Below, one piece after another: positions 5,162-63,563 of a DNA stretch of 64,000 nucleotides. Below the pieces are notes generated by a model. That model was not told the origin of the DNA, searched no databases, and saw nothing but the letters and a program-made list of their open reading frames with translations. The first letter of the stretch is position 1. The number at the start of each line of letters is the position of its first letter. The stretch covers positions 3,387,341-3,451,340 of the forward strand of contig KK106984.1 of NCBI GenBank assembly GCA_000611775.1, given 5' to 3'. A program made the translations under genes and the position numbers. Source of the stretch: Umbilicaria muhlenbergii (lineage: Eukaryota > Ascomycota > Lecanoromycetes > Umbilicariales > Umbilicariaceae).

Positions 5162-5226
5162 AACTCGTTGCAACCGAAGACGCTTAGGCGCAGGGTCAAA
5201 ATAAGAGTGGACTCCGAGTAGATTTG
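5162..5226 (+). repeat. 65-bp direct repeat, copy A
   Basis: This segment matches 8,614-8,678 over its full 65 bp without a gap and with about a dozen mismatches. The shared start is AACTCGTTGCAACCGAAGAC and both end at GTAGATTT plus a few bases. Copy A ends 46 bp before the ATG of the unknown gene at 5,273. It may be a remnant of a segmental duplication, a degraded short transposon or a shared control element; the sequence does not decide. Confidence 0.7.
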
Positions 5227-35782: not shown

Positions 35783-35790
35783 CTGAGAAG
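35783..35790 (+). repeat. 8-bp target-site duplication of the outer hAT (left)
   Basis: CTGAGAAG lies directly before the element terminus and again at 63,556-63,563 directly after the other terminus. Eight bases is the hallmark duplication length of the hAT superfamily. Confidence 0.85.
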
Positions 35791-36080
35791 CAGTGTTCCT
35801 AATAGCCTAGACCGGGCTAGCCTGTGGGCTAGCCCGGCTAGTTAGACCAGCCTAGACGGCTCCTTTCAGCGGGCTAGACTGGATTGCCAGTGGTCTAGCC
35901 GGTCTAGCTAGCCCTGACAGATTCTCAGAGTGCCTCATGAGGCTGAGGTGTAAGGCTGAAATGTCGCTTCACTTAGTCTATGTAGGCAGATATTTAGTTT
36001 AACCTTCTCTATCAGGCCTAGCCTTATACCCCCTGCTGGTCTAACTACCTTACGGGCCAAACCTTAATGTAAAATAGAGT
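35791..36080 (+). repeat. Left terminal and subterminal repeat region of the outer hAT
   Basis: It contains the 20-bp terminal match and several overlapping GGGCTAGCC / CCGGTCTAGC palindromes (35,805-35,930) that can fold as hairpins. The block GGGCCAAACCTTAA recurs inverted near the right end. GC content is much higher here than in the element interior, so the tips escaped the decay that hit the inside. Confidence 0.75.
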
Positions 36081-38952
36081 GTTGAATTTATGACTTCACA
36101 CTGTAATAATTACAAGCATGCCCACATTGTATAGTGTATATTTCATGCAAGTGATACTGTAATACAGTTGTTCTTATGTTTAAGAGATTATAATGGCTTG
36201 TTATATACTGTAAAGGTCAGTTAATACTGCTGTTAGATCTATCTAAGTGACCCTGCATATGTCTCAAAAATTGATGAAGCCAGCGTCACAGAAACCTCAC
36301 AATGTACATAAGTAAAGCATCACTCTACTGTAAACACTAGAGGACATGATAAAAAAAATGATACAATATAAATGAAATGTAGAGTAAAGACAAGGCAGCT
36401 ATGATGAAATGATATTGACATGATATCAATTGTTGACATGCTGCTGACATGATAAACATTGATTTTCTTGTGTTGTCAGATTTTCATCTTTTTGCTCTGA
36501 GGACAATCACTCCTTTCTTGCCTTTCTAATAGTGCAGACTCATCTAATTTGTTGTTACAGTCTCTCAAAGAACACATCACATATTTTAATCAGCAGAGAC
36601 ATCTTAAGAAAAGAATGCTTTGATCCTTAAACATGTACTAGTAGTGAAAGATAGAAAGGTGTTGAATGAAGATCTTAATTTCAAATGTTTAAAATAATTT
36701 AAGTCAGATGGAATGACCTGCATTAAATGACAGTCAGTTCAGTCTGTGTTAATATGATTAAGTTGTCACATAGCATTGTATCAAGTTAAATTTCACTGTG
36801 AAATGTGCAATGAAAAGTCAGTTTTCTTATTGTATGATAGCTTTGATAGTAACAACAGCAACATGTGAGTCTCAGATATGTCAACAACATAACTTAAATA
36901 AGAGGGTATACACAAAATGACAGAGTGATGTCAGCTCAACCTTGTAGCTCATTAGCATCAATGCTAAAGCAAATAAACATGATTGAAAACAAAGCAGAGC
37001 AAAACACTAATTTAAATGTTAATGTGAGTGAACACTGTTGAAGCTGATGAAGGTTCAGAGATGATGAAGTCTGAATCATCATCTGAGAGATCTTTAAGAT
37101 GATGCTTCTTTTCATTCTGAAAATGTGCACTTGCAGAGGTGAGCTGCTTAAACTCTTGCAGAGACAGCTGATCAAACTCAGCCTTCATTGACATCATATC
37201 ATAAAAATCACAGATCTTATCTCAGGAGTCTTGTTGCTCAGGATCTTCACATTTAACAAGGTTGATATGCAGCTTAATCTTGATTATGAGATTAACATAT
37301 ATGTCTTATATGGTCAGCCTGCTGCTGCAATGAATGTAGGTTTCAACTTACACTGCATGTAGTACTGGCTGAGGGCACTGCTGACTTTCACATCAAGGTA
37401 TCTCATCAAGAAGTAGAAAATGTAAAGGAAATTCTTCTTATCAAACGCCTTGATGAATCACTTCTCAAGAGCCTTTGAGCTGCTTTCACTGTGCATGAAC
37501 CTGTTGATGTCTGCATCAATCTCAATCAGAGATTCAACGTGGGTTTATTTGACCTTAGCACAAGTTTAAACTGAGGGGATAAGAAAGATACATACAACAA
37601 ACAGTTTGAGAGAGCAGCTTTTGTAGGTACAGCAGTGATTCAGTATTAACTCTTAAGCAAGCTTGTAGGTTGGTGAATCTGAATTAATATTGCTGTCATA
37701 CACTCACTTGATGATCTCCTCTCATTCATCCTTTTGAAAGTCCTTTAGCATCATTCAGTGAGTCTGATGATCAACTTCATTGAGCTTCACCTTGGCATCC
37801 TGCTCTTCTTGACTCTCAAGGGTTGTTTTAACCTTCTGCACCTTGATCATCTGCTTTCAAGGTTTGTTGACATTTTCTTGCACATGCTTGCATGATTCAC
37901 CAGAACCGTAGGAGTCTGAGGACTATGTAAAGTTATTGTATGTTTTATTAATGATAGCAGGGTGTTAATCTGTGAACTTTCATTGTGTCATGTATTTGAA
38001 CTATCTGACATCATGATAACTGCACTGAGTAAGGTAAGCATTAGAATGCAGTTGACTTCAGTAAATGATGTAGTGTACATACTGGTACAGAGAACTTGTC
38101 AACACCAGTAATTTTAACCTCAATATAAAAATTGCAGATTCACAGGAAAAGAATTGACATGATAAAATGTGCACAATTTTTAAAACACTTGCTGCCGTCT
38201 GATATTGAGTTCTAGGCGTGTGGTGGGTGAGGCTGAAGAAGTGATTTCATTTCATGAAGTAAATTTTAGCGCTTCAAGCAGAGCTGCAACCTCATGAAAA
38301 TCTTATCTTCACATTTTGAACTTTCATGATTCTCATCTCACCTCATTATTGTATCATCACACACACACAAAGTTCATACACAGTTATAAACAGCATATCA
38401 TCCTGTTCTACAATCTGTATAACATACTCTCATAGGTTTCAATTCATAAACACTTCTATCACTCATGGTTGAATGTTAATGACTGTTTAGGCATCTCCTT
38501 CTTGATCAGTTAATTGAGCAATTGACTCAGTCAATCTTATACATTGTGTCAGCTCTGCAAGTGAGCTTCTTTGAATTGTAAAGCTTGACTTGTGAGTGGA
38601 TGACTGATGTCATGAAAGGACTGGGAGTTTTGTGAAACATAATGTTGAGGGCAGAAAGAGCTTTGAGATTGTGACAAGAACATTTAAGAAGGCTTAGAGA
38701 AAGTTAAAATACACATGCTGCAGTCTTGCAAGTGATTCAACAAAGGCGGCAGTGACAATAGTGATGTCAGAGTGCAGGTGTTGATGACCTGCAATTGCAA
38801 CTGATGGCGGACTATTGTGACTGATCAGCAGACTGATTGCAGAGCAGGGCGCCACAATCAGCAGGTAATGAGCAAGATCACTTTATCAAAAGCAGCTACA
38901 AGCACATTTCTCACAGTCACTGTGCTGATATGTTGTCTAAGCTGACTCTTAG
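36081..38952. other. Left interior of the outer hAT, decayed
   Basis: AT-rich DNA dense in TGA/TCA triplets without an intact gene. On the minus strand, frames around 36,990-37,950 read as eroded protein (for instance FIKAFDKKNFLYIFYFLMRY and SALSQYYMQCKLKPTFIAAA), interrupted mainly by TGA. This may be the outer element's transposase, but I could not match it to a hAT motif. Confidence 0.45.
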
Positions 38953-39937
38953 TCATCCGCAACTTGGCAGCCCGCTCAAAAATAAGGTTTTAGTTAATAG
39001 TACTTTATGCGCTCAGAGCACTCTCTGAGCAGTAAATGAGCTCATACAAATCTTACACTTTAAATAATTATTATACCTTCATGAATAATAAGAAACTTTT
39101 TATTGAAAAGTTTTAGATCTCTTTATTCTGTACACTTTACAAACTAAAGATTTCTTCATAAGTTTTAATTTGCAATAGTTATGAATTAAAAAACTTTTAA
39201 CTAATTATAAATATATTAGCATATTGAATAACTATTGCGCTTTTATACTGATGATATAACTTTCAGTTTATAAGTTGTAGAGAAGAAGCTATTAAATAGT
39301 TTTATAACTTAAAGTTTTTTTATAACTGTTGTTGTTAAAAAGTTACATTGATTTCAAACTTTCAGTGATGAAAATTACAACATTAATAAACAGATTTTTA
39401 ATGACTTTTTGAATAACTCAACAACAACAACACATAAAAAGAAAGTTTGTATAAGAAAACTCTTAAACAGCTTATTCTCTACAACTTATAAACTGAAAGT
39501 TATATTATAAGTATAAAAGCGCAATAGTTATTCAAAGTATGTGACTTTTTTTGAAAGATTTTTCGCTGTTGAAAACTTGAATTAAATATAACTTAACAAC
39601 AATAGCAGTTATGAAGAAACTTTTAATTTAACATTAATAGATAATACTGTTTTTTATAATTTATGCATTGAAAGTTTCTTCATATCTGTTGAGGTGCAAA
39701 AGTTATTAAAGTGTGTAAATTTTTAAGTGGTGAAAATCTTGAAGTTCTTTAAATATTCAGAACTCAACACTTATACAGTGCTTTCAGACTCAACGAATCA
39801 TGATTTTTTATTGCAGAAAAGTGAATTTTAGCAAAAGTTTACTTATTATAAGTTTTACTGTTATTATAACACTGTGTGTGTACTTGTTTAAACAATTGTT
39901 TTAATAATTATTTTTTTATCACAAAATTTTGATGTTC
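38953..39937 (+). repeat. Left ~1-kb terminal inverted repeat
   Basis: Highly similar, inverted, to 60,673-61,657. It is extremely AT-rich and contains a smaller inverted repeat of its own: the segment with TTGCGCTTTTATACTGATGA (39,234-39,253) recurs inverted near 39,505-39,530. Each repeat can thus form an internal hairpin. No coding sequence. Confidence 0.88.
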
Positions 39938-41050
39938 TGCTCAAGATTTAAGGTTGAGCTCAAAGCACTCAGCAGGTGCTAAGAGCGGCTGTTAGCTGAG
40001 ACATGAGATCAGAAGCTCAGAGCGCTCAAAGTGTTAAAAACTAATTCAGAGCTAACTTGCTAAATTGCTGATGACTAGATCTAGATTTATGACACTGATG
40101 ATGAAGTTATTAATCTGAGCCTCACCTGCCCCTCCTCACTCAGTCATCACTACTTCACATCAGCCTCACTTTCATTCACTTCCTCACTTCACACCCTTTA
40201 CTCTCAGGGTCACTCTCAACTTGTGACAGCCTTTTGACAGCTTGAGTCTCTTTTGACCTCACCTCAATCACAGCAGGCCTCAACTGTCTCACTCTGATCT
40301 CAATGAATATTCAACCTCCTTCAAGAACAGTCTGCTTCACCTGCAGTCACTGTACTCAACTCATTAGCTGTGAGAGTTACTTTCACAACTTACAGCATCA
40401 CCTCTGCCTACAATCAGCTCTTGAACCCGCCTGCATAAGCTTCTTTCATCTTTCATGAATCAACTTCATGAAGCTGAGTGTGATCTGCAAGCATGAGGCG
40501 GCAACAGATGAGCTGAAATAAATTCTGCATCTTGAAAAATACTTCTGAAGTTGACATTGATAATGGGATGAAGGATAGAGGTGGAACTACAGATAATTCA
40601 CTGATGAGGAAGGTAAGATCAGTGCAAGAGACTGAGCTGCAGACATGATTGAAAGCCTCAATCAATACAAAAGATGATGATGCCAGTGAAGATGATCATT
40701 GAGATGATTTCACAATGAGCAGTGTACATTCATCAGTTGATTTAGATAGTCCACATGTAAGTTGTTAATATTATTATGCAAATACAATTTTAATTTTAAT
40801 AACTCATCATCAAAAAAACTCCTGCTCATGATGAGCCCTTCACAGATCAATTATCAGAACAGCTTTCAACAGTCAATCTTGAGCAGCTCCCTCAAGTACA
40901 GCAAGCTTGCACACAACTAAACTTGACCTTGAGAGATGGCACCGCACACTTAAGAGATGAAGTGAAGGAAGCTGAATTCATTACAGACTTTGATGATCAT
41001 AAGCTTCCTGCAACAGATAATGCTGCAAGAATGCTTCTTTTATCATCATG
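39938..41050. other. Leader region between the left TIR and the transposase
   Basis: Decayed DNA with pyrimidine-rich stretches (40,130-40,330), which may be the old promoter and leader of the transposase. Eroded frames occur but nothing is recognisable. Confidence 0.35.
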
Positions 41051-43660
41051 ATGATCATTTATCACACTTGTTGATGATGACTCTGAAGAAGTGCCGCACT
41101 CTTGCATCATTCATGAGTTGAATGATTTCACAATGACTTTAAGATTATGAGTTGAAGATGCTGAAATCTCACAGGAGAAATACTTGTCTTTGCTGAAGAT
41201 ACTTGACATGATCAAAGATGTCAGTCAACTTCAAAAGGTGCCTTGAAGTCTAACTACATTAAAGAGAAATGTGAAGATCAGTCTTTCACTTTTTAAGATG
41301 AGAAGAAAAAGGATTTCAGTGAACAGTCAGCAGATGCTGACCCTGCTTAATATCAGTAAAAACCTGACCTCTCATCCTCTCATCACTTAAGTGTATTGGT
41401 TTGATCTGCTCAATCTATTTACAATCATACTCTCATCATCAGACTTCACCTCAAAGATGCACTTTGAAATGACTCATCTGATTAATCAATCAAGTGAACT
41501 GTGACATTTTATCAGCTGAGCCTCTTCAATCTGCTTCACTTCTGAGGAATTTGCATATTATGAGGATCAGACACTGATATTTTCATCTGATGTTGTGTAT
41601 TATCATTGCCTTTCAGGTTGTGAATGTCAGAATGAAGATAAGCTTCCTCACATTGATTGAATTTACTTTATAATCAAGGACTACACAACTGCTGCTCTTG
41701 TGCCTGATTGTGTAGTTTTTCATGTTCAACAACTCCTATGTTCTACTGAAATCTCACCACAGTTTGCCAGAAAAATGCTTGAGAAATTAAGAGCTAAAGA
41801 GCTGCTCTGTGTTGAAGATGAGCTTCAGGTACTCAGTAAAGATCATCTTTTTTCTTGAGAGCTTATGATCTTCCTGAATTATAATGAAAACAGTACCTGA
41901 ACTGTGTTCAAACAAGACTGATTTGTTGTTCATCATATCATCAACTTCAAGGGTTATTTCCGTGGCTTGAAGCTCTCAAAACCACTGTGAAGGAAGCTTG
42001 AATTGACAGAATATAATAAACAACATTTGTTGAACTTCATGCTTTCAGGAAACACGCTCTCTGTGTCATTTATGTTATTCATTGACAGCTTTGAACTTTA
42101 TCAAAACATGTATCATTCCTTAATGAGGGTTTACATTATCTTCACAGGCCTCAATGCTCAAGAGTGTTCAAGATGAGCAAATGTCTTCTCATTAACATTA
42201 AGTCCTCATGAAAGTGACTTTAATGATGTTGTGAAAGCTCTGCAGTTCCTACATTTGCTGAATCAAGGTGCTAAGCTCATTATCAATGAAGCCTCAAAGA
42301 CTGTGTACACCTTTACACATGCATTTCTGAGTGACATGCCTCAACAACAAAGCAACACAGGCTTCAAATTTCAAAATGCAACAATGAGATGTTAAAGTTG
42401 TCTCATATCAGCAGAAGAGAGGGGGGATCTTGAATGACTGCTTATGAAGAAGGGTTGATATCATCATCAGACATTGCATCTTCAACAACAGCTTGACAGC
42501 ATTGCAGGCAAGACATGATGAGCAGTTTTCACAACAGAGTGAAGCCTGACCCTTGAACAGCCTCAGCTCATTGATATTGCATTATCTCTTGATTTAATAC
42601 AAACACGCTCAAGTGACCCCGCTCATTCAGAGTATGCAGGCATTGCAAAGCAGGCTCACTCATTGCTGATTGATATCATTTTAACTTTTAAAGGTCAAGA
42701 GTTGTACTGTGAAGCTTTGCAGCACTTTCCTTTCCCTCCTGAATGAGGTCAATTACAGAGCTCATTGCATCACCTAGAAAGCATGCAGATGCAAGAGCAT
42801 GCTCATGACTTCATCATAATATCAGTACTTCTATGATGTTGTCTGAAAGATGAGTGAATTCAATCAGCATTTCTTGCAGCGGTGAAGCAGGTCTTTCAAG
42901 AAGAGATGAGTGAACATGAGCTCTCTGCAAGAGATATCATTATTAAATGCTATGATGATATAGCTAAGAGCAATAATGCAGTGCTTAAGCAAGCCATCTC
43001 AAAGAATGATAAGCAGGAAATGATGAAAATCATTAAGTAAGACTGTAAGAGCTTTCAGTAATTCTTTAAGGCAGCAGAGAAAAGATCTGTCAGTGATTTT
43101 TAAGCAAGCACTCACAGTTTTTCCTCAGTTACAACTCAGCACTGCTGCTCTTCTGTTGAGTCTGATATGTTGTCAGTTGAGCCTTCACTCCTAGACTTGT
43201 CAGGCTCAACCTCAAAGAAGAAGACAGTCATGCTTTAAAGAAGTCAAGCCTGATCAAATCTTCATGTTGAGTTACACTATGAGGATGTAGTGGCTGAATA
43301 TGTCACAGCATACAATTGCAATGTTCTCATTAAAAAGAACAAGCACAAGTACATGTTTTCTTGCTTAAGTTGAACTCTTGAATTGATGAACTGATGAATG
43401 CATCTCAGGTTCTTTAAGCAAATTGTGACCTTGACAAATCATCAGAATGTAGAACATGCGCTTTTATCTTGAGAGAATTTATAACAGATTATTTAATACA
43501 TTCTGCAGAACTCCTTTGCTGAAACAGAGCCTGAAATCACATCTGTTATTCAACAACTGCATTTTTAATGTTCATGACTTCTGCAATCTGTGCTACCACT
43601 GTCTGAATGAGGGGAGGAAGAAGCTCAAGACACTATGAATATTAAAGAGGACAAAACACA
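41050..43660 (+). pseudogene. Decayed tnp2/CMC-like transposase
   Basis: Plus-strand remnants in nearly one frame show a transposase widespread in filamentous ascomycetes. Recognisable blocks in order are: ARKMLEKLRAKELLCVEDEL and SKDHLF (about 41,770-41,860); FMLFIDSFELYQNMYHSLMR and VYIIFTGLNAQE (42,060-42,165); ANVFSLTLSPHESDFNDVVK (42,178-42,240); AFLSDMPQQQSNTGFKFQNA (about 42,320-42,380); a Cys pair followed by ERGDLE; EALQHFPFPPE and HHLESMQMQEHAHDF (42,715-42,815); and FFKQIVTLTNHQNVEHALFY-like sequence ending near 43,638. Interruptions are many, and almost all in-frame stops are TGA. The family link to tnp2 (CACTA/Plavaka) rests on memory of these blocks and should be searched. DNA after the nested hAT (50,559-51,300) may hold its 3' part. 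Confidence 0.65.
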
Positions 43661-43682
43661 TCAAAACTCTGTTGTCTTAAAT

Positions 43683-43690
43683 TGCATCAC
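43683..43690 (+). repeat. Target-site duplication of the second hAT (left)
   Basis: TGCATCAC, repeated exactly at 50,551-50,558. The host DNA on both sides belongs to the long-TIR element, which shows this hAT inserted into it. Confidence 0.88.
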
Positions 43691-45714
43691 TATGATGATT
43701 GTTGAGATGAGACAGAATTAAATTTCTAATTTCTGTCTCATCCTGATCCTGTTCTGTCTCAGTGATGATTTTTCAGTTTCATCTCAGTCCTGTTGATAAA
43801 ATGAGACAGAAATAGTTCTGTTGTCTCTGCATCATTAATACATCATGATGACAGTAACTTAGGCCTAACCTAAAAAGACTTAATACAATATTACATTAAG
43901 ATAAACATCATTTAAGGAGTCATCAGTTTACATTTCATAATAAATCATTACATTTGATCATTAAAACTGTTGAATTGAGTCTTAATATAATCTGCGCATG
44001 ACTAACTGTATCTACTGAATCAAAGCATCAAATTCACTCATATATCACTTCACAAGTGTCAAATCCTTTGACTGTATTATGATACACTTGCTGTGAATGA
44101 CAGCAAGTTGAGTGTCTAAATAAAAGTTGAATTAATATAACATTAGAAATAGAAGGTTAGAACTCTCACTTTTAAAGAAGAATATCATGATTCATGTACT
44201 CTTTCATCACTTCTTGCAGTGCCTTCAACATGATATGTTGTATCTGAAAGCCTGTGTCCTCAGTAAACATCATTTCAGTCATGATCTCATGAACAATTCT
44301 ATTGAATGAGGCTTTTGAAATGAGGAGATCTGTCAACTTTTGATATCATTTGATTTCACGCAGCGCTTGAACTGTACAATCATTGAGATAGATTATTAAA
44401 ATTGATCATTATTATGCTGATATAACTTATCATCAGGCCGTGCAGCAGGTTTAAGCATTGTAAGCTTTTCAGTTAAATGTGAAGTTCCTGCTGCTCTTGC
44501 AGTGGCATCAGTCATTCTTCATGCATGAATATCAATACAATACTGTGCCAGGCGCTGTTGATAATTGATGATGAGGATGACAGCAGTGATGAAGGTGACT
44601 TGTGTATTAATTTTCTTCTTTCTAGAATTGACCTTGGCCTTGACCTTGATGTGCACAACATGAGCTGAATCAGCTTTTGCTTTTGCTTTTGCAGCAGTCT
44701 TTTCATCAGTTACTGAGGCTTTTCAGGGTGCTTTGATCATTATTTGTTTCATTCATGTCATTCTGAAATGTTAGAAATGATCATTATGTTGAGAATACAG
44801 AACCTACATGTTATGAACTGATGATTTATTGTGATAATGAATGATGTTGAGATCATAAAGTGAGTGAAGGTCATGATGTTATTTCAGTGTCATGTGCTTT
44901 TACACTAAGCTTAAAGTGTGCATCAATAAGATCATGTTGACATCACCCTCACCTCAAATTCCTGTCACCCCTCAACTCAATCACTCACATTTTTATAAAT
45001 TGTTTATCTCTTGACCTGCAAGCAGTCTTCTCATCAGTCATTGAATGCACATCTTTTACTCATGATATTTCATGTCCTGACCTTTGTGATGAGCCTCATG
45101 ACTCTCATGATGCACATTTTAGCCTTTATGATCAGTCAGCTCAGTCTGCTCTACTAAGAATGAGTGTTACCCCTGTTGAAGAAGACTTCATTAGTGAGTT
45201 TTAACTTCTTTTATTAAAAAAGATGATATAATGATCTGTTGATTAATTATACATGACAGGCCTTGTAGAACTCTCATCATCATCAACTCAAGAGAGTGAT
45301 TCTTAAGTTACCTCTGTTGCAAAAGTCTTCATTAGTGAGTTTTAACATTTCTTATTATAACAAGATGTTATAACAATTTATTGATTGATTATACATGACA
45401 GGCCTTGCTGAACACTCCTCATCATTAATGCAAGTGAGTGAGTCCCCTGTGATGACATCATCAATGAAAAAACACGCTCATACAGCGCAATCTGATGATG
45501 AGAATGTGTAAACTGAGTAAATTTTAAACTTTTCAACACCCTCTGTTCTTACTACCCCTCATAAGCCGCGCACAAAGTGAATAAAGACTGAAGTGAATAG
45601 CAATATTAACAGTTTTTAAATAAAGATCAGTAGGTATTCTAATGATCTATTGTAACAAAATCATTAATCATGCATTCTTAGCGCTCAAAACACTTAATAA
45701 GTATACAAAACCTT

Positions 45715-47005
45715 CAATTTATGTTGAAGGTGAAGAAGGAATGTTCATAACAGAAAAGGTTTAAGCAAAAGCAGCTGTCAAGGCAGCAAACAGAATCATT
45801 GAAGCATTTATGAAAGATCTCACAGATTTCAGCCTGAAAAAGACTGCTGACTCATACTTCACAACATCTCAGAAGGTGATTGAGGTGCATGAACTTCATC
45901 ATGAGAAGATGCAAGATCTTGATGAAGCAGTGTTATTAAGAGCTGATGATCATGATTGAGCTGCTGTCTTTTAAGCTAAGAAAAAGTTAAGGCTTACTGA
46001 TGCATGAAAAGCTGTCAACTCAGCAGATTAAAAAGTTATGAAAGAGAAGTGTCAACTAAATGTTCTGACAGATCATTTCAATACTGATGAAAGTGATATG
46101 TGTTTTTCTTTCTACATTTCAATTCAGGAATCAACTCACAAATGATAACTGAATTCTTTCAAGTGCAACATGAGCAACAGCTGCGTCATGCAGCATATTA
46201 AGCACAACAGAGAGAGAAATTAAAGCATGCAGAAACTTTCAACACAATGAGAACATTAAAAGAAGACTCTGAATCTGCATTTAAGCTGTTTGTCTTTATG
46301 ATAATATTATAATGATCTCTTGTAATGATCACGCATGCTTATAATTATGCAGGATTCAAAAGATGATAAATATCAGAGAGTTATCATCATCAGACTTGTC
46401 ATCTCTGTGAAGTGTTATGAATGAATCACCTGAATCAATGATCTTCAAGACTTAATTAATGCTGAAGATCTCAACTCAGCTGACATCATAAGAATGTTTC
46501 ATAAGCAGATTATGAACTCAGATCATATTAAAGATTCAGAAGAGCAGTCAGTGCAGGTCTTTTATATTTTAACATTTCATTATAATGATATTTATTCAAA
46601 ACTGTTTAATTATTTGTACTCTGCTCTGAGACAACAGGTTCTGAAGAAGGACGCTATCATGATTGTTGATTCACAGGTTAAAACAGTTCATACAGTCTTA
46701 CAGAGTCATCTGAAGCATACTTTAATGAGGATGATCAAATGTTTGATTTCATAATCAAAGGGTCATCTGAAATTCTTAAAAAGGATGATAATGAGGATGA
46801 TGCTGATCTTCCCTTAATTACTATGAGCTTTAATGACTTCATTCAGCATCTTGAAGCTGTTTTTGTCCCTGATGACAATAATATCCTCATAGAGAGTGAG
46901 GTAGCTACAGGATATAAGAAGAAAAAGCTTAAAAATGAAAACACAAATGATGCAAATGCAGGTGATGTAAATGCAGGTGATGCAGATGATGCAGATGATG
47001 AGTAA
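45715..47005 (+). pseudogene. Eroded accessory gene inside the second hAT
   Basis: A reading frame distinct from the transposase, upstream of it and on the same strand. Pieces such as EGMFITEKV, AAVKAANRIIEAFMKDLTDF and TTSQKVIEVHELHHEKMQDL (45,740-45,930) are followed by two longer open stretches. These are 46,494-46,754 and 46,739-47,005; the latter ends with an acidic Asp/Ala/Asn repeat (NTNDANAGDVNAGDADDADD). The product is unrecognised. Charged, helical content suggests a coiled-coil or DNA-binding accessory protein. It could also be an unrelated captured fragment or part of a longer first exon set of the transposase. Confidence 0.4.
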
Positions 47006-47549
47006 ATAAACAAATCAAAATCTGAATTTTAATGAAGTAAACAAGCATTATCTGATGTGATTAAACATTTTCAAGGATGTTGACTGTTCAACAAATGTTA
47101 AACACATCAATCAGACTGTGTGATTTATCAGGTGACATTGATCATCATAATCACACATTAAAATTCCTTTTTCAGAATAGTTTAGTCTTTAGTTCAATGC
47201 ATGTATGTACTTTTTTAATTAAGTGATTAAAATTCAAGCTCTGCTCAAATAAACTGTTTAATTCAAAGGGCTTTCTGTATTCTCATACCCTTTAACATCA
47301 TTATTCATCTTAAGACAGCATGATTTTCTCACAATTTACTCTTATTTTTAAAGATGATTGAGCTTCAGCTTCACAGTCAACTTCTGTTGACTTCTTATTT
47401 ATCATTGAATCATCATCAGCATGTCTTTTATGAAACAGAAAGAGTGATTATGTTCTTTAAATCTTTAAGTTTCATGATAAATTCAAAGAGTGATGAGAGA
47501 GAATGAAATGAGATCAAGATACACTCAAGAAGATGACAAGACATAAGCT

Positions 47550-51328: not shown

Positions 51329-52120
51329 TGTCAGGGCCACCATATAATAGTATGACAGTATGACACTAGTACAACACTATAGTACGACACTATAGTACGA
51401 CACTATAGTATGACATTATATAGATATGATGACTCAGCGCCTAGCGCCTTGGCATCAAGTGAAAACTCTTCACAAGGAGGTTTGAAAACCTGCTTCCTCA
51501 GTGATCAGTTTTGCCACTGAATAGAAGATGTATAACCACTGCATTGACCCTATCATGACTTTTGCCTATGACACCCCGTTCAAACACCACTATGATGACC
51601 GTCGTACACTCAACCTCTTACATACTGATCGCTCAGTACCTTCAGGCGAACGGTCACGTTGAAAGCAAATAAGACATGATGACACCAACGCTTCAATCTC
51701 ATCAGGTCAGTGAAACAGTCAACAATCAAGCTGAGGCAGGCCCTTCAATTAGCAGGTCTACATTATCAGTCATTGATACCCCTACTTCTGACATCATTGA
51801 TGATGATGAACATATCACTGCAGGCAACCTCAATGACATCATTGAAGATCTTGAGGCAGTCACTGCTCATAATCAGGAGGTCATTGAGCGTCAGTGACTA
51901 CAGTTATGACGTGTATGACAAGAAATTGAGTTTGAGGACAATAAAAGGGAGCTTCAAGAGCTCAATCAACACCTGCAAGAAGGTCCTTCAATTATGATAA
52001 ACTCAAGGAACAACACAAGTTCATCACATGAATTATGATGTCAAGCTATGACAGACATCACACCTCCCCCTTTTCAACACCTTATAAAGCCATGAGAGCC
52101 TCATCTCTATGCAGGAGGCA
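51329..52120 (+). repeat. Direct repeat copy 1: LTR plus leader/gag start
   Basis: About 790 bp nearly identical to 59,401-60,191. The first few hundred bases are the putative 5' LTR, with short repeated CACTATAGTACGA units at about 51,370-51,415. The similarity goes on past any likely LTR end into the gag region. The exact LTR end was not determined. Confidence 0.8.
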
Positions 52121-55100
52121 TCAAAGTCATGAGATGAAGACTTCAGGAATACCTGAATGAAATCAATCAAAATCAGAAGCTGATGCCAGAGCAATTTCCT
52201 ACTGAATGAGATTTCATCATCTGAGCAGGCACCTACCTTGAGAAAACAGTCATGAGTGACTGATGAAAGCAAAAGGAGCAGCATGATCACACTTAAATCA
52301 TTTATGACAACTTTTTAAAGGTTCTAAAGAAGAACCTATCTCCTGATGAAGACATGAATGAATGAAATATCATCACCTTCAATGCAGTTGAACTCTGCAG
52401 CCATGATACAATCACCTCCTGATATGACAGATTATCAAAACTCTACTGCTTCCTTTCAACCTCACACAAAGAGATCAGTGAGACGCTCATTCAAGATCAC
52501 TGATGATCAAGGCTTCCTCATCACGTCCTGACTGAACTATGACGTTGAGATTCAACGCAGGTTGCAAGACAGTCAGTGCAGGAAATTTCAGCACATCTTG
52601 ACATCATCATTGATCATGAACCGTTCTGAAGCCGCTCAGACACCAAAAAGGATCATCAAAGCAAAACTGACAACAATGACAAAAGTATGACACAGACGTC
52701 ATACTATGACAGAAAAGAATTCCTCACTGAACAACAAACAACCTGCACTCAATTCACTCAATTCAGTCATGAAAGAGAGAACAACTCATGAGGTTTCTAT
52801 CATGAAAGTGACCACAATCAGAGCCAGAATCTCAATCATATATCAATCACTGAGGGAGCAACTATGATGATGACATGAACATTCACAACCCCCTCACGCT
52901 GACAAGGAGACTTCATCCCAAGGAATGAAGTGAATGCATGAAGGTCAGCAGGTCTCTGCATTAAATGTGAAGTCATCAGCCACTGAACAAATGATTGTAT
53001 GACTGAATGATCTACAGCCGTCTCCACCGCAGTCAATGTGAATAAATGACTCATGGATCACCTCCAGTTTGCCTCACTACTGATTATTGATGATATCTCA
53101 CGTCTGATATCAGGGCAACTAGAGGTGGAACTGCACATAATGACAATGAGTGATATGATGAGCAAATCTTCACAATATTCATATATTATCAACAATGGCA
53201 GCCAGGGCAATACAATCACATGAGATGTTGTCAATAAGCTGTCCCTACTGACTGAATCCTATGAGGCTCAAGGCAATGCATGAGGTAATGTGATTGAGCT
53301 ATCAGAGTCTGTAATACTGAAAATTACAGTGTAAGACACTGATGGTCAACCTTACCACTATAGCAATCATTTCTTTGTCACACAAGACAACACACCAGCT
53401 CCTTTTGTCCTCAGGCTATCATTTCTAATCCATGCAAACCCAAATCACTACTACAATACGGGTAAATTCCTATGAAGAAAGCCAAAACATACTACCACAC
53501 GCTGTATATTCATCACTGATGAAAAAAAGGCTTTGAAGAATGTCCTACATATGAACAACCTCACCATTACTGACTGCTTTATAGGGCCGGCGGACCTAGT
53601 GGCTGATATGGAAAAATATACCCTCCAGATGAACTTATTACAGTATGACAGGAGTAAGAATGTGTACAACACATTATCACCTGAATACCATGATTACACA
53701 GACATATTTCAGGCAGCTGAGAAGCAGTCTCTGCCTGAGAGAGGTTCACATGACCATGTCATTGACTTGAAACTGAGGCAGCAACCTTCATTCAGAAAGT
53801 TATACTCAATGTCTTCAGCTGAGCTTGATGTACTGAAGGTATATTTAGATGATGTTATGAAAGCAGGCATAATTCACAAATTAATATCACCTGCAGCTTC
53901 ACCTGTCATGTTCATGCTTAAATCAGACAGAAGCCTGTGACTGGTCATTGACTATAAATAGTTGAATGACATTATCATTAAGAACTGTTATCCCCTACCA
54001 CTCATATCAGATATGTTGAACCGTCTTCAAGAAGCTAAGAAGTTCACTAAGCTGAACTGCAAGAATGCATATAATTGAATATGAATCAAGGGTGAAGATG
54101 AGTGAAAAACAGCATTCTGAACATGATTCAGCCTGTTCAAATATCTTGTCATGCTTTTCAGTCTCACAAATGCTCCTGCTATGTTTCAGGCCTTCATTGA
54201 TAAGACTCTTGATGAGTTACTTGATATAACATGAGTGATTTATCTAGATGATATCCTGATCTTCAGCAAAGATGAATCTGAACATGAGGAGCATGTATGA
54301 CAAGTATTAACTGCATTAAAAAATCATGATCTTCATCTTAAGATCAGCAAATGCTCCTTCAATGCAACGGAAGTGAACTTCCTGGGGTTTAAGATCAATA
54401 CTGAAGGCATACATATGAGTTCAGAAAGGATTCACGCCGTTGAAGAATGACTACCCTCAGAGAATGTCCATGAATTGCAGGTCTTTCTAGGCTTCATTAA
54501 CTTTTTCTGAAGGTTTATAAGAGACTATTCATGAATTGCAGCACCACTGTTAAATCTCCTGAAAACAGGAAAAAATAAAAAGAAGACTGAGGATACATCA
54601 CTCTCTCCTCTTCAGTCTCAACAGACTGCTACTAAAAGAAAGCAGAACAGCCTGACCTCATTGTGAAGATTCAGTACAAGATATTCAGCACGCAACCTGC
54701 AAGTTGAAGGAAAGCTATGACAAGAAAACATCATACCTGCCTCTTTTTCACTCTCAAGAGTCACATTGAAAGTGTTTAATGCTCTGAAGGAGACCTTCAT
54801 GAGTGCTTCATTACTACACTATTTCAATGAAAACAAACTCATGAGGGTTGAAACGGACGCCTCTGAATTCACAATTGATGGAATCTTGACGCAACACTTC
54901 AAGGTCAACAGTCAATTGCACTGACTATCAGTTGCTTACTACAGCAAGAAGCTGCTAAATACTGAGACCTGATATGATACAGGTGAGCAAGAGCTCCTTG
55001 TCATCATGAAAGTCATGCATCATTGACGGCACTACTGTCAGGGTGCTAGACACCAAATTGTCATACTGACTGATCATGCAAACCTTGTTTGGTTCATGAC

Positions 55101-55422
55101 TACCTCAAACCTCACATGAAGGCAGCTCAAGTGAGCTGAAAAGCTCACTGAGTACAACTTTAAGGTCACATATTAAGAGGGCAAGAAGAACTCTGCTGAT
55201 GATCTGTCAAGATGACCTGATTATGAACTGCTGAAGGCTGCCAGTACCTCAACTGCTGCTGAAATAATGCAACAGTCCTTCCATTTAGGAAGCAAGGATT
55301 ATAAGTCAGTGCAGGAGAAATTATATGCGCTTGCTGCAATGACACTGCAGTCAAGACGCTCAGTACAACAGAGGCTATGACAAGAGAATGTCATATCTGT
55401 CATAATGAATACTATCAGTATG

Positions 55423-55770
55423 ATGAATACTGAAGATGGCGGTCCTATTAAAATACTAATAGTGCGGAACCTATCTGCTCAAGAAGAAGCAAGCCGTGAT
55501 GAATATGCCAGTACAATGAATACTGAAGCTGACAGCATGACTGAAACACCAGCAGTTCATGACCTACATGCTCAAGAAGCAAGCCGTGATGAATATATCA
55601 ATATGATGAATACTGAAGTCAGTGATACAACTGAAACACCAGCAGTTCATGACCTACATGCTCAAGAAGCAAGCCGTGATGAATATATCAATATGATGAA
55701 TACTGAAGCTGGTGATACAACTGAAACATCAGCAGTTCATGACCTACATGCTTGAGAAGCAAGCTGTGAC
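55423..55770 (+). repeat. 90-bp tandem repeat within the pol region
   Basis: Four units begin with ATGAATACTGAAG at 55,423, 55,516, 55,606 and 55,696, spaced 93, 90 and 90 bp, always a multiple of three. The encoded motif VHDLHAQEASRDEY recurs. It sits between the RNase H and integrase regions of the Gypsy element, an unusual place for a minisatellite. Confidence 0.85.
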
Positions 55771-57597
55771 TGAATAAAAGGGCTTAAGTATGCAGAGCCT
55801 CAGCAGCATTCAATCAAGGATAACTCAACAGACACTGCAGTTATGAACAGTGACACAAGTCATGTTTTTATTAACCTTTAAATTGAGGATAGCGCTTCTG
55901 CTGACACTGTTGAAGCGCTTCAACTCATGTCTACTCACTCACCAATAGGTGAGGAGATAACAGCTTATATAAGAATGTCTATCAAACAACTTAAACATGT
56001 GATTCATACTGAGCAGTCAAAAGACAGTTTGGTATGATGAGTATGACAAGGATTAACTACCCCTTTCAAGGATAGAAACAACTTGGCCGGGTCTGAGATG
56101 ACAAATATGAATATAGACATGAACCCTGAGATGATCATGACATCAGAAATGCAGCCAAATATGGCATCTATACTGTCAGATATATGAAAACGTTGGCAAG
56201 AAATAGATGATGTCATACACTATGATGATAAGGTCTACATTTCACAGAACCCTGCCCTCCACAATGCAGTGATCAGTTGATTTCACAATGATGTTTTTGC
56301 AGGTCATTTCAGGAAGTCAAGAACTGCAGAATTGATGTGATGATCTTATGACTGACCTGATGCTGTCAGAGACGTATGACATTACTGTCATGACTGTGTC
56401 AAATGTCAAAAGGTGAAGCCAGCTCATCACAAATCATACAGGTTATTAAACTCATTGTCAGTCTCAACTGAGCCATGACATATGATGACAATGGACTTCA
56501 TTACGGATCTGCCACTGAGCAGCATGTATGAAAGTATGACATGAGATTTAATCCTTGTCATAGTTGATAAGTTGACCAAAATGGCTCACTATATTTCAGT
56601 ACAGAAGACAATGTCAGTTGCTGACTTCATTGAAGTGTTTATTCAGGACATAATAAAGCATCATGAAGTAACAAAAGTAATAATCACAGACAGAGACAAG
56701 CTGTTTACATCAGAGCAGTGAATCAGCTTCTGCTTTCACATGTGATGTCATCATAACATGTCAACAGCTTTTCACCCGCAAACTGACAGTCAAACAGAGA
56801 GGCAGAACCAGTCCCTGAAGGCATATTTACACATATTCATTGATGAGCAGCAAGAGGACTGAGTGAAGCTTCTATCCTGCATGAAGTTCTCATACAACAA
56901 CTTCATACATGCTGCTATGAAAAAGAGCCCCTTTCAGCTTAACCTAGAGTGAGACCCTCAGATGAGTCTAAGTAAGCTGTTTATACAGCACTCACATGAA
57001 CAAATAAGATCCTATGCAGATGCACAGCAGCTTCAAGATCAAATTGCAATGACTCAGAAGCAGCTATGACAGGTCAATGAGATGTATGCAAACTACTATA
57101 ATCAGCGCTGAACGGAGATAACATTCAAAGAAGGTGATTTAGTACTGATCAATGAAAAGAATGTGTCAGTGAACAAACAGATGAAGAAACTGCATTGAAA
57201 AAAACTCAGCTCATTCATGATATGATGTGTGATAAGTCAATCATCATATGAACTTGACCTCCCAGAGGATCAAAACATTTATAACATATTCAATGTCACT
57301 CTATTGAAGCCATTTCAAGGCACACGTCATGTGTTCCCTGCATTGACAGGAAAAGACCTGCTACCCAACTGAGATGATGAGTGAGAAGTCAAGGCAATTG
57401 TGGATAGCTGCATTCATGACGGCAGGCTTCAATACCTCATCAAATGAAAGCTGACGGACCAGGTGTGAGATGACACATGAAAGTCAGCACACTTCATCTG
57501 CAATGCAAAGGCAAAAATGCAGAAATTTCATGCTGACAACCTTGACAAACTGAAATTCAGGTGAGCTGTATGACGTGGCCCTTCAAAGTTGATTGAG

Positions 57598-57688
57598 AAG
57601 CTGTCACAAAAGCCATGAGCCTTAAGAAAGCTGTCACAAAAGTCATGAGCCTTAAGAAAGCTGTCACAAAAGTCATGAGTCTTAAGAA
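57598..57688 (+). repeat. 30-bp tandem repeat, three units
   Basis: Units AAGCTGTCACAAAAG..CATGAG start at 57,598, 57,628 and 57,658. It lies just after the chromodomain-like end of the Gypsy coding region, at the start of its 3' non-coding part. Confidence 0.85.
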
Positions 57689-57699
57689 CTGAAAACTTT

Positions 57700-59400
57700 A
57701 TCAGCTTTGTTAACCTGATCTCCTATGACAGAGCCAGTACCTTATGACAAGAATATGACAGAGGCTACAACACTACAATGAGATCTTTAATAAGATTACT
57801 GCACGGACTACATTATCACAGACATGTCACATTGCAGAGAACACTCAAGCGCAGAAGCATTTCATTTCAGGTCTGAAGATCAAAATGAACCTGAGATCAG
57901 CGCCTTGCACTCAACCCCTCATCAGCATCATGTCAAGTCACTCTCATTTATCTACTTGTCTTTCATCATCTCAAATCCTTCTTCACTGTTTGATGAGGCC
58001 TTCAACCTCATCTCCTCAACGCAGCGCTGCTCACAGAGTTCAATGTACTTTTGATGATGACAAGATTGATGAGCGTTGAGGATGCAGAGAGCGTGAGCAG
58101 TGCTTTTCAGCAAGACAGCAAGAGCCTGAATGAGCTCCTCAAGACTACTGAATTAACATTAATCACCTCATTATGAATGCCGTGAGACTCACGTTGAGGA
58201 GCGGCTGCAGGGGGCGTGAAGGATGCTGATAATGATTGATAAGAGGCAGCAGTGTGAGGATCTGATGATCAGTCATTGAACGCTATGACTAGTTAGCAAT
58301 GCAAAAGTACGACATAAAGTATGACAAAAGTATGACACTTTGTCATACTAAACAAAACAAAAGGGGATTGAGGAAGGCAGACTTATGATGTGTCATCACC
58401 CCTCTGATCACCATAGACATGCGCCAGGACAACAACACCAGAGCTCTCAGAGTTAAGAGCAGTGATGATCAGAGGCTCTGTCATGCATTGCTCATGAGGG
58501 TTGCAGAGAGATATGCAACGCGTGCAGGCTCCCCTGTTCAACACAAAGCAGTGATCAACTTCAGCTCTTATACAAGGGTCACAGTGAGCAGTACCTGACA
58601 ACGTGTGACTGAGGTTCTCTCAAATCACACACTCATGATGATGAGCCTGCTGCACGTGAGCCGGCAGTGAGGTATCATCATGACATCACACAGGGCAGGA
58701 ACTGCTGTTGAAGATGTCACTCAGAGGTAGACGCCTGACCCTCTTCAGGCGCTGAACAGTCAGTTTTATCACCCTGTTTCCCCGTCTCTTTCTGAAGGTG
58801 TTGACCATCACAGTTTCACTCACTGACTCTGACTCAGAGCCCTCCTCATCACACTGAGCCTGAAGATTGACAGGCTTCCCTGGCGGAGGCGGGTCTCCAC
58901 CATTGTTCATGACCGTGGGTTTGAGAGTTCAAATATTGATTGCCTATATACAATGTTAGCATCCATACAAAGTATGACAGGAAGTATGACACCACAAATG
59001 AGGCGTGAGCTGCAAGCTTCATGATGCTCCCTCCATGAGGTGAACACCTCTGCAATGAGGGATGACGTCATGAAGTCACCAGGTCACCCAATGAGCTGCG
59101 GAAAAGCTGTGAGAAATACAACAACATGTCATAAGAGAGATGATGAAGAAGAAACACAAGGAAAGGGTGTTTTGAACCTATGATAAACATTTTGATTTTG
59201 ATGTTTATGTTAGGAGGAACTTACTGCCAGGCGTGATATCATAACAATTAAGTGAGGCATGTGACCAGCCTTACCCTAGCGTGGTTTCACACCCTCACTC
59301 TACATGATCAACCACTTATCAGGCCATCATGGTGATGTCTATGATGATGAATTCAGAGTCAATTGACACCGGGGACGGCGCCATGAGAAGGGGAATGCTG
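57700..59400. other. Region between the Gypsy pol end and the second LTR copy
   Basis: About 1.7 kb, long for a 3' leader. Three open frames of 68-74 codons lie on the minus strand (58,383-58,601, 58,686-58,910 and 58,849-59,055). The second is Pro-rich at its start and basic at its end (FRKRRGNRVIKLTVQRLKRV). It may be an extra antisense gene of the element, a captured host fragment, or chance. Confidence 0.4.
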
Positions 59401-60191
59401 TGTCAGGGCCATCATATAATAGTATGACAGTCCAACACTAGTACGACATTATAGTACAACACTATAGTACGACACTATAGTACGACATTATATAAATATG
59501 ATGACTCAGCGCCTAGCGCCTTGGCATCAAGTGAAAACTCTTCACAAGGAGGTTCAGAAACCTGCTTCCTCAGTGATCAGTTTTGCCACCAAATAGAAGA
59601 TGTATAACCACTGCATTGACCCTATCATGACTTTTGCCTATGACACCCCGTTCAAACACCACTATGATGACCGTCGTACACTCAACCTCTTACATACTGA
59701 TCGCTCAGTACCTTCAGGCGAACGGTCACGTTGAAAGCAAATAAGACATGATGACACCAACGCTTCAATCTCATCAGGTCAGTGAAACAGTCAACAATCA
59801 AGCTGAGGCAGGCCCTTCAATTAGCAGGTCTACATTATCAGTCATTGATACCCCTACTTCTGACATCATTGATGATGATGAACATATCACTGCAGGCAAC
59901 CTCAACGACATCATTAAAGACCTTGAGGCAGTCACTGCTCATAATCAGGAGGTCATCAAGCATCAGTGATCACAGTTACAATGTGTACAATAAGAAATTA
60001 AGTTTAAAGACAATAAAAGGGAGCTTCAGGAGCTCAATCAACATCTGTAAGAAGATTTTTCAACTACAACAAACTCAGGGAACAACACAGGTTCATCACA
60101 TGAACTACAATGTCAAGTTATGACAGACATCACACCTCTCCCTTTTCAACACCTTATAAAGTCATGAGAGCCTCATCTCTATGCAGGAGGC
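59401..60191 (+). repeat. Direct repeat copy 2: LTR plus leader/gag start, cut by the gap
   Basis: Same orientation as 51,329-52,120 with scattered transitions. Because the match includes gag sequence and not only the LTR, this is either the start of a second tandem copy sharing an LTR or an independent second insertion. The copy breaks off at the N run. Confidence 0.8.
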
Positions 60192-60672
60192 NNNNNNNNN
60201 NNNNNNNNNNNNNNNNNNNNNNNNNNNNNNNNNNNNNNNNNNNNNNNNNNNNNNNNNNNNNNNNNNNNNNNNNNNNNNNNNNNNNNNNNNNNNNNNNNNN
60301 NNNNNNNNNNNNNNNNNNNNNNNNNNNNNNNNNNNNNNNNNNNNNNNNNNNNNNNNNNNNNNNNNNNNNNNNNNNNNNNNNNNNNNNNNNNNNNNNNNNN
60401 NNNNNNNNNNNNNNNNNNNNNNNNNNNNNNNNNNNNNNNNNNNNNNNNNNNNNNNNNNNNNNNNNNNNNNNNNNNNNNNNNNNNNNNNNNNNNNNNNNNN
60501 NNNNNNNNNNNNNNNNNNNNNNNNNNNNNNNNNNNNNNNNNNNNNNNNNNNNNNNNNNNNNNNNNNNNNNNNNNNNNNNNNNNNNNNNNNNNNNNNNNNN
60601 NNNNNNNNNNNNNNNNNNNNNNNNNNNNNNNNNNNNNNNNNNNNNNNNNNNNNNNNNNNNNNNNNNNNNNNN
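60192..60672. other. Assembly gap (481 N)
   Basis: A run of N. It lies between a gag region of the Gypsy repeat and the inner edge of the right ~1-kb TIR. The true length and content are unknown; missing sequence of a second Gypsy copy and the LTR target duplication are expected here. Confidence 0.99.
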
Positions 60673-61657
60673 GAACATTAAAATTTTGTGATAAAAAAAC
60701 AATTATTAAAACAATTGTTTAAAGAAGTACACACACAGTGTTATAATAACAGTAAAATTTATAATAAGTAAACTTTTGCTAAAATTCACTTTTCTGCAAT
60801 AAAAAATCATGATTTGTTGAGTCTGAAAGCACTGTATAAGTGTTGAGTTCTGAATATTTAAAGAACTTCAAGATTTTCATCACTTAAAAAACTACACACT
60901 TTATTAACTTTTGCACCTCAACAGATATGAAGAAACTTTTAATGCATAAGTTATAAAGAACAGTATTCTCTATTAATGTTAAATTAATAGTTTCTTCATA
61001 ACTGCTGTTGTTGTTAAGTTATATTTAATTCAAGTTTTCAATAGCGAGAAATCTTTTAAAAAAAGTCACATACTTTAAATAACTGTTGCGCTTTTATACT
61101 TATGATATAACTTTCAGTTTATAAGTTGTAGAGAATAAGCTGTTTAAGAGTTTTCTTATACAAAGTTTTTTTTTATGTGTTGTTGTTGTTGAGTTATTCA
61201 AAAAGTCATTAAAAGTCTGTTTATTAATGTTGTGATTTTCGTCACTGAAAGTTTGAAATCAATGTAACTTTTTAACAACAACAGTTATAAAAAAACTTTA
61301 AGTTATAGAACTGTTTAATAGCTTCTTCTCTACAACTTATAAACTGAAAGTTATATTATAAGTATAAAAGCGCAATAGTTATTTAATATGCTAATATATT
61401 TATAATTAGTTCAAAGTTTTTTAATTCATAACTATTGCAAATTAAAACTTATAAAGAAATCTTTAGTTTGTAAAGTGTACAGAATAAGGAGATTTAAAAC
61501 TTTTTAATAAAAAGTTTCTTATTATTCATGAAGGTATAATAGTTATTTAAAGTGTAAGATTTGTATGAGCTCATTTACTGCTCAGAGAGTGCTCTGAGCG
61601 CATAAAGTACTATTAACTAAAACCTTATTTTTGAGCGGGCTATCAAATTGCAGATGA
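60673..61657 (-). repeat. Right ~1-kb terminal inverted repeat
   Basis: Inverted partner of 38,953-39,937. Both visible arms are 985 bp, and this arm may extend into the gap. Most differences between the arms are transitions. It ends at GCAGATGA. Confidence 0.88.
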
Positions 61658-63400
61658 AGTCATGCTCACCTCATTACTTCACACACTGACCGCCCTGAGT
61701 TCTTCTCACACACAGACTCATCACACTCTTCTTCACTCTTCTCCTTGAACAGCTCCTCAACACTTTTGATCTCATTTAACTCATCATCACTCTTGACTCA
61801 GACTCCTGTTCCTCATCCTCATCCTCAGACCCTCAATCTTTATCAACATCAAGTTAACTTCTATGCTTAAATCATGCAGTGATAATCTCATCCTTTTAAA
61901 CCTGTCACAATCCTTCTGTTGAAGTGATAATCACCTGTCACAATACTGTCTGTCAACATTCAGCTCCTTAACTCATTGTTTTAAGCCTGCTTAATCCCAT
62001 AGGCCTCATTCAATTCATTCACGTCATGATTGAGTGCAATGCGCAAGTCACAGCTGGGTGACTTTAATGGCACTGACCTAGAAAGATACCTTCAAGTGTG
62101 ACAGCACAGATGGTTATGAAGGTTTAAACTTTGATAACTGTTGAGAGACTCTAAGAAACAGGAAACAGTAAGACACTTGAGGACTGTGCACTTGTGATTT
62201 AAAATATCCTGACTGACTTCATGCTTTAATAGTGTGGCGGGCTTTCTGTTACATCCTCAGGTACAATTCCCAGTTGCTACAGATACTTGAAGTTGCAGAT
62301 GAACTAAATGAATTGCAGAGACTTTTTCAGACACCTCATTTAAAACATCACAGTTACAATGATTTGTGACAGCAGCAGTTCATTCTTCCTTTTTAAAATA
62401 TCTATTCAAATAACTTTAAACCTAAACTCTGTTTCTTCCTCTACTGAATCATCACTAATGAAGCTTCAGCAAGATAATCATATCAGGTAACAAAAACACA
62501 CATAATCACTTCAATTACCTCACAGCCGCAGTCTGATCATGTAAGTGAAAATCAAAACACTCTCATCCTCTTTCTGTTTAAAGATCTATTTTATTAACAC
62601 TTGTCTTTAAGTATGACGTGATAATCACTTTACAAGAAAGCAACATCACTACCTTACTGACATCTTCAAAGTTGAACTACAAGCCTTTGAAAATTGAAGT
62701 TCAGCATTTGTTTTTAAATGTGACAACCTCTGTAAGTCTCTTTCACTCTTTTAACAAGTATTAATCATGACCTGTGCAGCTTCATCATTTTAACTTCTTT
62801 CTACAGATTCTTTGATGTTGCTCAATGAGCTGCACTCCTTCTACACAGCAAGCCTGACATCTTTGATCTATATCATAATGATGATCAGTGAGATAGGTGT
62901 TTGATGGATTGTCTTAAATAATCATGCATGTATTATAGACTTGAATGTTCTCTTCACTCTATGTGTGACCTTCTTCTGTGATCACTTGATAGATAATGAT
63001 CAGACTAACTTAGTCTTCTTAAATTAATGTGATCTAAATTGCAACTGTGGAATCATTATGAAGTGTATTAACATTATGACTCCATCATGTTTAGCATGGT
63101 AGAACTCACGATTTGCTATATTCTTCATGACATGGTAAAGTTTTATTACCATGTATGACATGAGGTAGAAATACTAAACATGTACAAGATCTTTGACGGT
63201 AAATCAGGACATGATGTCAAAGTCTCAAACATGTATGAAAGTTTTAATGGTAAAACCAATTTCACAGTGTAAAATATAATAACGATAAATTGCTCTATAC
63301 AGTAATCAATCCATTTAATTATGTATTGAACTACATGCTAAATGCTACCACCGCATGTGAATGTGGTTCCCCGAATTTACCATGTTAACATGGATTACCA
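61658..63400. other. Right interior of the outer hAT, decayed
   Basis: AT-rich eroded sequence with no recognisable gene. Pyrimidine-rich runs at 61,680-61,830 encode acidic or basic low-complexity on the minus strand. From about 63,060 the sequence changes texture, with palindromic pieces such as TACCATG motifs (63,100-63,400), probably subterminal repeats of the outer element. Confidence 0.4.
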
Positions 63401-63555
63401 TGCCAGCCGCGCGGTGCAACCCTATTCTGGCTTAAGGTTTGGCCCTTAAGGTAGACTGTTAGACGGGCTAGCCTAGCCTAGACCGAGCTCTTCACGGGCT
63501 AGCCTAGCCTAGACCGAGGCTCGGTCTAGGCTAGGCTAGGCTATTAGGAACACTG
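63401..63555 (-). repeat. Right terminal and subterminal repeat region of the outer hAT
   Basis: GC-rich, with GGGCTAGCCTAGCCTAGACC units and a large hairpin around 63,505-63,540. It ends in the reverse complement of the left 20-bp terminus. It contains the inverted counterpart of the left GGGCCAAACCTTAA block at about 63,430-63,445. Confidence 0.8.
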
Positions 63556-63563
63556 CTGAGAAG
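63556..63563 (+). repeat. 8-bp target-site duplication of the outer hAT (right)
   Basis: CTGAGAAG, identical to 35,783-35,790. Host sequence resumes directly after it. Confidence 0.85.

Follow-up and report, generated by a model that had tools for sequence, protein, structure and literature searches.

Insertion brackets point to a decayed, gap-interrupted transposon nest with hAT-type outer ends in a fungal genome

The 64,000-nucleotide stretch of contig KK106984.1 analysed here (the whole of it is referred to as the window) contains an AT-rich block that is very probably a decayed nest of transposons in a fungal genome, made by ordinary insertions. Its members are an outer element with hAT-type ends, a DNA transposon with long terminal inverted repeats (TIRs) inside it, and, within the body of the latter, a second hAT element and a Ty3/Gypsy retrotransposon (Table 1). 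Measured in 1-kb tiles between 36001 and 63000, the GC content of the block ranges from 0.15 to 0.47, the lowest value belonging to the tile with most of an assembly gap, against 0.52 in the flanks. A first-pass annotation had described the block as one insertion of 27.8 kb and as a nest of four layers resolved to the base. Its AT-richness and its origin in a single insertion are well supported, whereas the length is not a measured one, and the nest has three layers holding four elements, the second hAT and the Gypsy element being siblings.

The evidence for a single outer insertion comes from its two ends. CAGTGTTCCTAATAGCCTAG opens the element at 35791 and its exact complement closes it at 63555, an inverted identity of 20 out of 20 positions, and CTGAGAAG abuts both TIRs on the outside, so that the perfect short TIRs and the 8-bp duplication of the earlier annotation both stand. 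CTGAGAAG by itself is common (seven occurrences in the window against 4.3 expected), and the weight therefore rests on its adjacency to the TIRs. In a survey of all identical 8-mers spaced 500-30,000 bp apart in the region 35001-64000 (n = 20,673 pairs), just three pairs enclose an inverted identity of 20/20: the outer bracket and two pairs within the arms of the long-TIR element. A third match to the outer TIR at up to three mismatches is absent from the window, and none occurred in 100 shuffles. The outer ends additionally share a 36-bp subterminal inverted match (36045-36080 and 63419-63454, 83%), and the motif GGCTAG, counted on both strands, is present in nine and eight copies in the 300-bp outer tips and in none in the remaining insertion. 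Exact 17-base scans of viral and prokaryote contigs with the left outer end returned seven stretches (one and six), which are taken as chance matches; in 257 billion bases chance would give roughly 30, more than the six returned.

We describe the outer element as having hAT-type ends on account of its tips and its 8-bp duplication. Two results weigh against a firmer assignment: a six-frame Pfam search of both outer halves (plus-strand frames of the right half up to 63400) detected neither a transposase nor a hAT dimerisation domain, and on both strands the longest runs free of TAA and TAG are at chance level in simulations. Because of these results the element is probably non-autonomous, or else decayed past recognition. 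Elsewhere in the nest the Pfam scans covered the plus-strand frames of the second hAT, the Gypsy element and the long-TIR body between its arms. The outer tip reads CAGTG, which fits the hAT tip pattern, and the scans of these halves matched no non-hAT transposase in the outer halves either. It thus seems unlikely that the ends belong to another superfamily that makes 8-bp duplications, for example Zisupton, although such duplications are reported for Zisupton in part of PMC12730594 and outer halves devoid of a hAT domain or coding trace would agree with that alternative.

Inside these hAT-type ends, the long-TIR element spans 38953-61657 as previously annotated, with arms of at least 985 bp that differ at 41 of 985 positions; it is flanked by AG on either side, a coincidence expected once in 16 cases by chance. 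The second hAT likewise has the duplication of its own that had been claimed for it, TGCATCAC at 43683-43690 and 50551-50558. Its ends, with an exact inverted identity of 12/20, are unremarkable alone (27th of the 20,673 pairs); with transitions allowed they agree at 19 of 20 positions and rank 7th; of the six pairs ranked higher, one is the outer bracket and the other five fall within the long-TIR arms. Decay is evident in the left tip of the second hAT, and the right tip has kept CpG. Dimer_Tnp_hAT is narrowly matched in the fragment 49213-49722 (E = 1.5e-4; 22.0 bits, cut-off 21.4). The case for this second hAT is weakened by the same domain falling under the cut-off when it is read within a longer frame (E = 0.0034, 17.6 bits), and by a longest TAA/TAG-free run that is not above chance (8 of 100 simulations). 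A fold model of part of the element was too poor for use (mean predicted local distance difference test score, pLDDT, 30.8). A tandem pair of 142-bp copies (82% matches) lies inside it at 45166-45444.

These brackets suggest a sequence of events in which cut-and-paste and copy-and-paste insertions would have succeeded one another in a fungus, most likely of the Pezizomycotina. A hAT-type element of about 5 kb, probably non-autonomous, would have entered at CTGAGAAG; a DNA transposon with inverted arms of about 1 kb, possibly CMC/Plavaka-like, would have entered the outer element with a 2-bp AG duplication; and the second hAT and the Ty3/Gypsy element would each have entered the long-TIR body later. 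The bodies then lost most of their CpG, presumably by cytosine methylation and deamination and with many in-frame TGA codons as the result, and the outer 150-300 bp were largely spared, their ends still matching. The annotated order of arrival is well supported as far as it runs from the outer element to the long-TIR element and then to the inner pair, but the members of that pair sit in separate parts of the long-TIR body, so that nesting gives no order between them.

The claim that the nest is resolved to the base does not hold, for 481 N at 60192-60672, which the first-pass annotation did not mention, conceal the right Gypsy junction with its duplication, the inward limit of the right arm and whatever else remains of the long-TIR body. 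A gap whose true size the assembly does not fix counts against the nest as reconstructed, and it makes 27.8 kb a nominal length. The outer left and right halves are joined solely across these N, and it is conceivable that a scaffold misjoin has brought together two different loci: nothing but a gap inside repeats connects the halves, and a stretch of 314 identical bp, in a repeat with 93.8% identity overall, might reflect collapsed assembly. We nevertheless regard a misjoin as very unlikely, given that the outer TIRs, the 8-bp duplication, the subterminal sequence and the 985-bp arms, present on each side in its own right, all match between the two, which a random misjoin would not produce; the agreement of these features across the gap therefore lends the join independent support.

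The long-TIR element is possibly CMC/Plavaka-like, which we offer as a lead. Its termini are TCATCC and TCATCT (TCATC..GATGA), and a plus-strand frame in its body (41391-43037) contains 16 TGA and one TAA. The frame may be the remnant of a transposase like those of fungal CMC/Plavaka elements. Several observations speak against it: the coding signal of the frame is borderline (1 of 100 simulations), its sole CxxC is read across an in-frame TAA at 42393-42395, Pfam gave no match, PDB sequences gave chance-level matches only (best E 0.55), and a fold model was unusable (mean pLDDT 38.0). The frame had no relatives in viral_contigs, a weak negative because the six patterns searched derive from decayed letters. 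The imperfect fit extends to the ends. PlavakaB, a Plavaka of the CMCT clade, is reported in part of PMC12730594 to have the ends 5'-CATCA..TGATG-3' and duplications of 2 or 3 bp; our element shares CATC..GATG one base in, the 2-bp AG flank and, as described there for Plavaka, a CxxC, though in a broken frame and across a TAA. Unlike what that source gives for Plavaka, it has 985-bp arms, no profile match, and C or T instead of A as the fifth base (CATCC/CATCT), this last difference also arguing against the assignment. Its size and long arms had prompted a comparison with Maverick/Polinton, which we dropped: the plus-strand frames of the long-TIR body have no Pfam match, and the argument from size is weakened by the fact that much of the length consists of two later insertions. 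The arms have about 24% GC and are themselves imperfectly palindromic in places (122-nt arms, 84%).

In the Ty3/Gypsy element the pol region matches RVT_1 (4.6e-30), RT_RNaseH (9e-22), Integrase_H2C2 (3.2e-11) and SH3_Tf2-1 (6.1e-9) above the Pfam cut-offs, with reverse transcriptase (RT), RNase H and integrase in Ty3/Gypsy order, and its solved relatives by sequence include Ty3 Gag-Pol. The integrase zinc domain passes and the integrase core (rve) lies under its cut-off, which is a point against the present reading. The frame runs for 786 codons free of TAA and TAG, a length that none of 100 simulations reaches, yet it has 39 TGA inside. AACTC precedes the first long terminal repeat (LTR), and a purine-rich stretch directly precedes the second, which starts at 59401. 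The enclosed Gypsy element of the earlier annotation is accordingly present as regards its pol, but it does not have the plain LTR-LTR layout: a direct repeat with 93.7% identity (51326-52119 and 59398-60191) comprises in both copies an LTR followed by the same gag start, and since the gag start recurs after the second LTR, what enters the gap is either a tandem element or a product of misassembly. The element resembles Ty3/Gypsy elements with a Tf2-1-like SH3 domain in its domain order and in its purine-rich tract, and differs from them in the extra gag start past the second LTR and in a frame broken by TGA codons. The two repeats are identical over 314 bp (51520-51833 and 59592-59905), with 49 differences in the remainder of the 790-bp repeat; gene conversion and assembly collapse near the gap are candidate explanations. 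About three to four tandem 90-bp units, in frame in one open reading, occupy 55405-55776.

All four bodies have lost CpG. With tips, arms and LTRs left out, the observed/expected ratio (o/e) of CpG is 0.14 in the outer element, 0.09 in the long-TIR element, 0.11 in the second hAT and 0.24 in the Gypsy element, compared with 0.86 in the host flank, and CpA and TpG are in excess (1.47-1.70). The Gypsy interior is thus the least depleted, which is compatible with a late insertion, but the decay may not have proceeded at a constant rate, because the outer body is no more decayed than the inner hAT. The usual fungal signature of repeat-induced point mutation (RIP) is absent from the four bodies, whose indices are 0.52-0.69 and 1.52-1.87. 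The Gypsy repeats differ at ten pairs of neighbouring positions, and seven of these set TG against CA, the pattern expected if deamination struck one strand of an ancestral CpG in one copy and the other strand in the second. That repeat has six C/T differences at CpG and eight TG/CA doublets (16 strand sites), CpG being the most affected dinucleotide per site. An earlier count, in which 70 of 71 in-frame stops in five blocks were TGA, was discarded as circular, the blocks having been chosen as TAA/TAG-free (one of them joins two runs), and was replaced by the simulations.

A purely CpG-directed process is opposed by several further figures. The long-TIR arms fall within the published RIP thresholds (TpA/ApT 1.20, index 0.97), as do both Gypsy LTRs (1.11 and 1.07; 1.00 and 1.00); 26 C/T differences in the Gypsy repeat are at CpA, CpC or CpT; and 30 of the 33 C/T differences between the long-TIR arms lie outside CpG, 28 of the 33 being at CpA or CpT and three at CpG, although per site CpC (2/8) and CpG (3/15) are highest, on small numbers. 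CpG loss is therefore not the sole mutational process. In fungal transposable elements the change of CpG to TpG/CpA, which the present bodies share, has been attributed to methylation and deamination in the relevant part of PMC4352252. The same part lists three basidiomycetes as CpG-only genomes, CpG and CpA in the truffle, a very weak CpG bias in Blumeria and mostly CpA/CpT in ascomycetes; the host of the nest, in contrast to the CpG-only basidiomycetes, appears to be an ascomycete.

The outer tips differ from the interior. They had been described as GC-rich and matching despite the decay inside, and indeed their GC content is 0.57 (35791-35940 and 63400-63555), their TIRs are identical, and they have no excess of TpG and CpA (o/e 0.53-0.88, against 1.53-1.61 just inside); their CpG o/e of 0.30-0.64 is nevertheless lower than in the host flank. 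Such spared, GC-rich termini with CTAG motifs could be candidate binding sites of a transposase, and the composite of at least about 28 kb could then be a mobilisable, non-autonomous hAT-type unit with three dead transposons as its cargo, an idea to which we give very little credence. That the unit of about 27.8 kb can still be mobilised as one giant transposon by a related hAT transposase would agree with the matching, excess-free tips and with the concentration of GGCTAG at both ends. But the tip motif holds no CpG, so that the tips may have been spared because they offered too few targets, the frames scanned yielded no transposase for the outer ends, and the window offers no sign of any movement of the composite later than the inner insertions; continued mobility is accordingly most improbable, and we retain the explanation by ordinary insertions followed by decay.

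Table 1. Coordinates of the nest, its brackets and the assembly gap in the window
Feature	Position	Strand	Remarks
CTGAGAAG, 8-bp target duplication, left copy	35783..35790		
Outer element, left half, hAT-type	35791..38952		tip 35791-36090 with CTAG/TAGCC motifs; interior CpG-depleted; without coding trace
Outer TIR, left	35791..35810	+	
AG, possible 2-bp duplication, left	38951..38952		1 in 16 by chance
Long-TIR left arm	38953..39937	+	at least 985 bp
Long-TIR body, left part	39938..43682	+	open frame 41391-43037, possible transposase remnant
TGCATCAC, 8-bp duplication, left	43683..43690		
Second hAT	43691..50550	+	6,860 bp, decayed; hAT dimerisation domain within 49213-49722
TGCATCAC, 8-bp duplication, right	50551..50558		
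Long-TIR body, resumed	50559..51328	+	up to Gypsy LTR
Ty3/Gypsy	51329..60191	+	5' LTR from 51329, gag, RT-RNaseH-integrase, purine-rich tract, second LTR at 59401, repeated gag start into gap
Gap of 481 N	60192..60672		abuts inner edge of right arm
Long-TIR right arm	60673..61657	-	inner end cut by gap
AG, possible 2-bp duplication, right	61658..61659		
Outer element, right half, hAT-type	61658..63555		tip 63400-63555 GC-rich
Outer TIR, right	63536..63555	-	
CTGAGAAG, 8-bp target duplication, right copy	63556..63563		

The flanks of the nest are eukaryotic. Eight of the ten open frames tested there match a Pfam family with E values of 0.001 or lower, the families including Nop16, a ZIP transporter and an iron-containing alcohol dehydrogenase, and several long unbroken frames reach up to 739 codons. 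The Nop16 frame has three distinct matches among solved sequences (104 bits for the top one, 94 for the second), which are presumably Chaetomium and yeast entries. A host from the Pezizomycotina is accordingly likely. When the host flanks are joined across the insertion no spanning open frame exceeds 67 codons, and no gene was therefore evidently interrupted. Scans of the window for tRNA (bacterial code) and with Rfam gave no matches. In the host flank, two direct copies of a sequence of about 65 bp (88%; 5162-5225 and 8614-8678) bracket two overlapping minus-strand open frames.

The nest is an ordinary example of a structure whose size and kind have already been described in fungi. For Mycosphaerella graminicola, part of PMC4522978 reports 78 putative nested clusters of transposable elements, of 7.5-63 kb and with 33 over 20 kb, the target duplication being verified for a listed subset. 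As in those nests, a base element here holds further elements and the GC content falls below that of the flanks, at least in the figure described there; the clusters of that report mostly have an LTR base and CpA-type RIP, in contrast to the hAT-type DNA base and the CpG loss in the bodies found here. The present nest is nevertheless a clean teaching case, in which insertion brackets give the order of transposon arrival, and it illustrates how a scaffold gap embedded in repeats can be checked through the agreement of outer ends and duplication across it. One feature may be of interest to specialists: the depletion of the bodies is of the CpG type, and not CpA-type RIP, in what appears to be an ascomycete.

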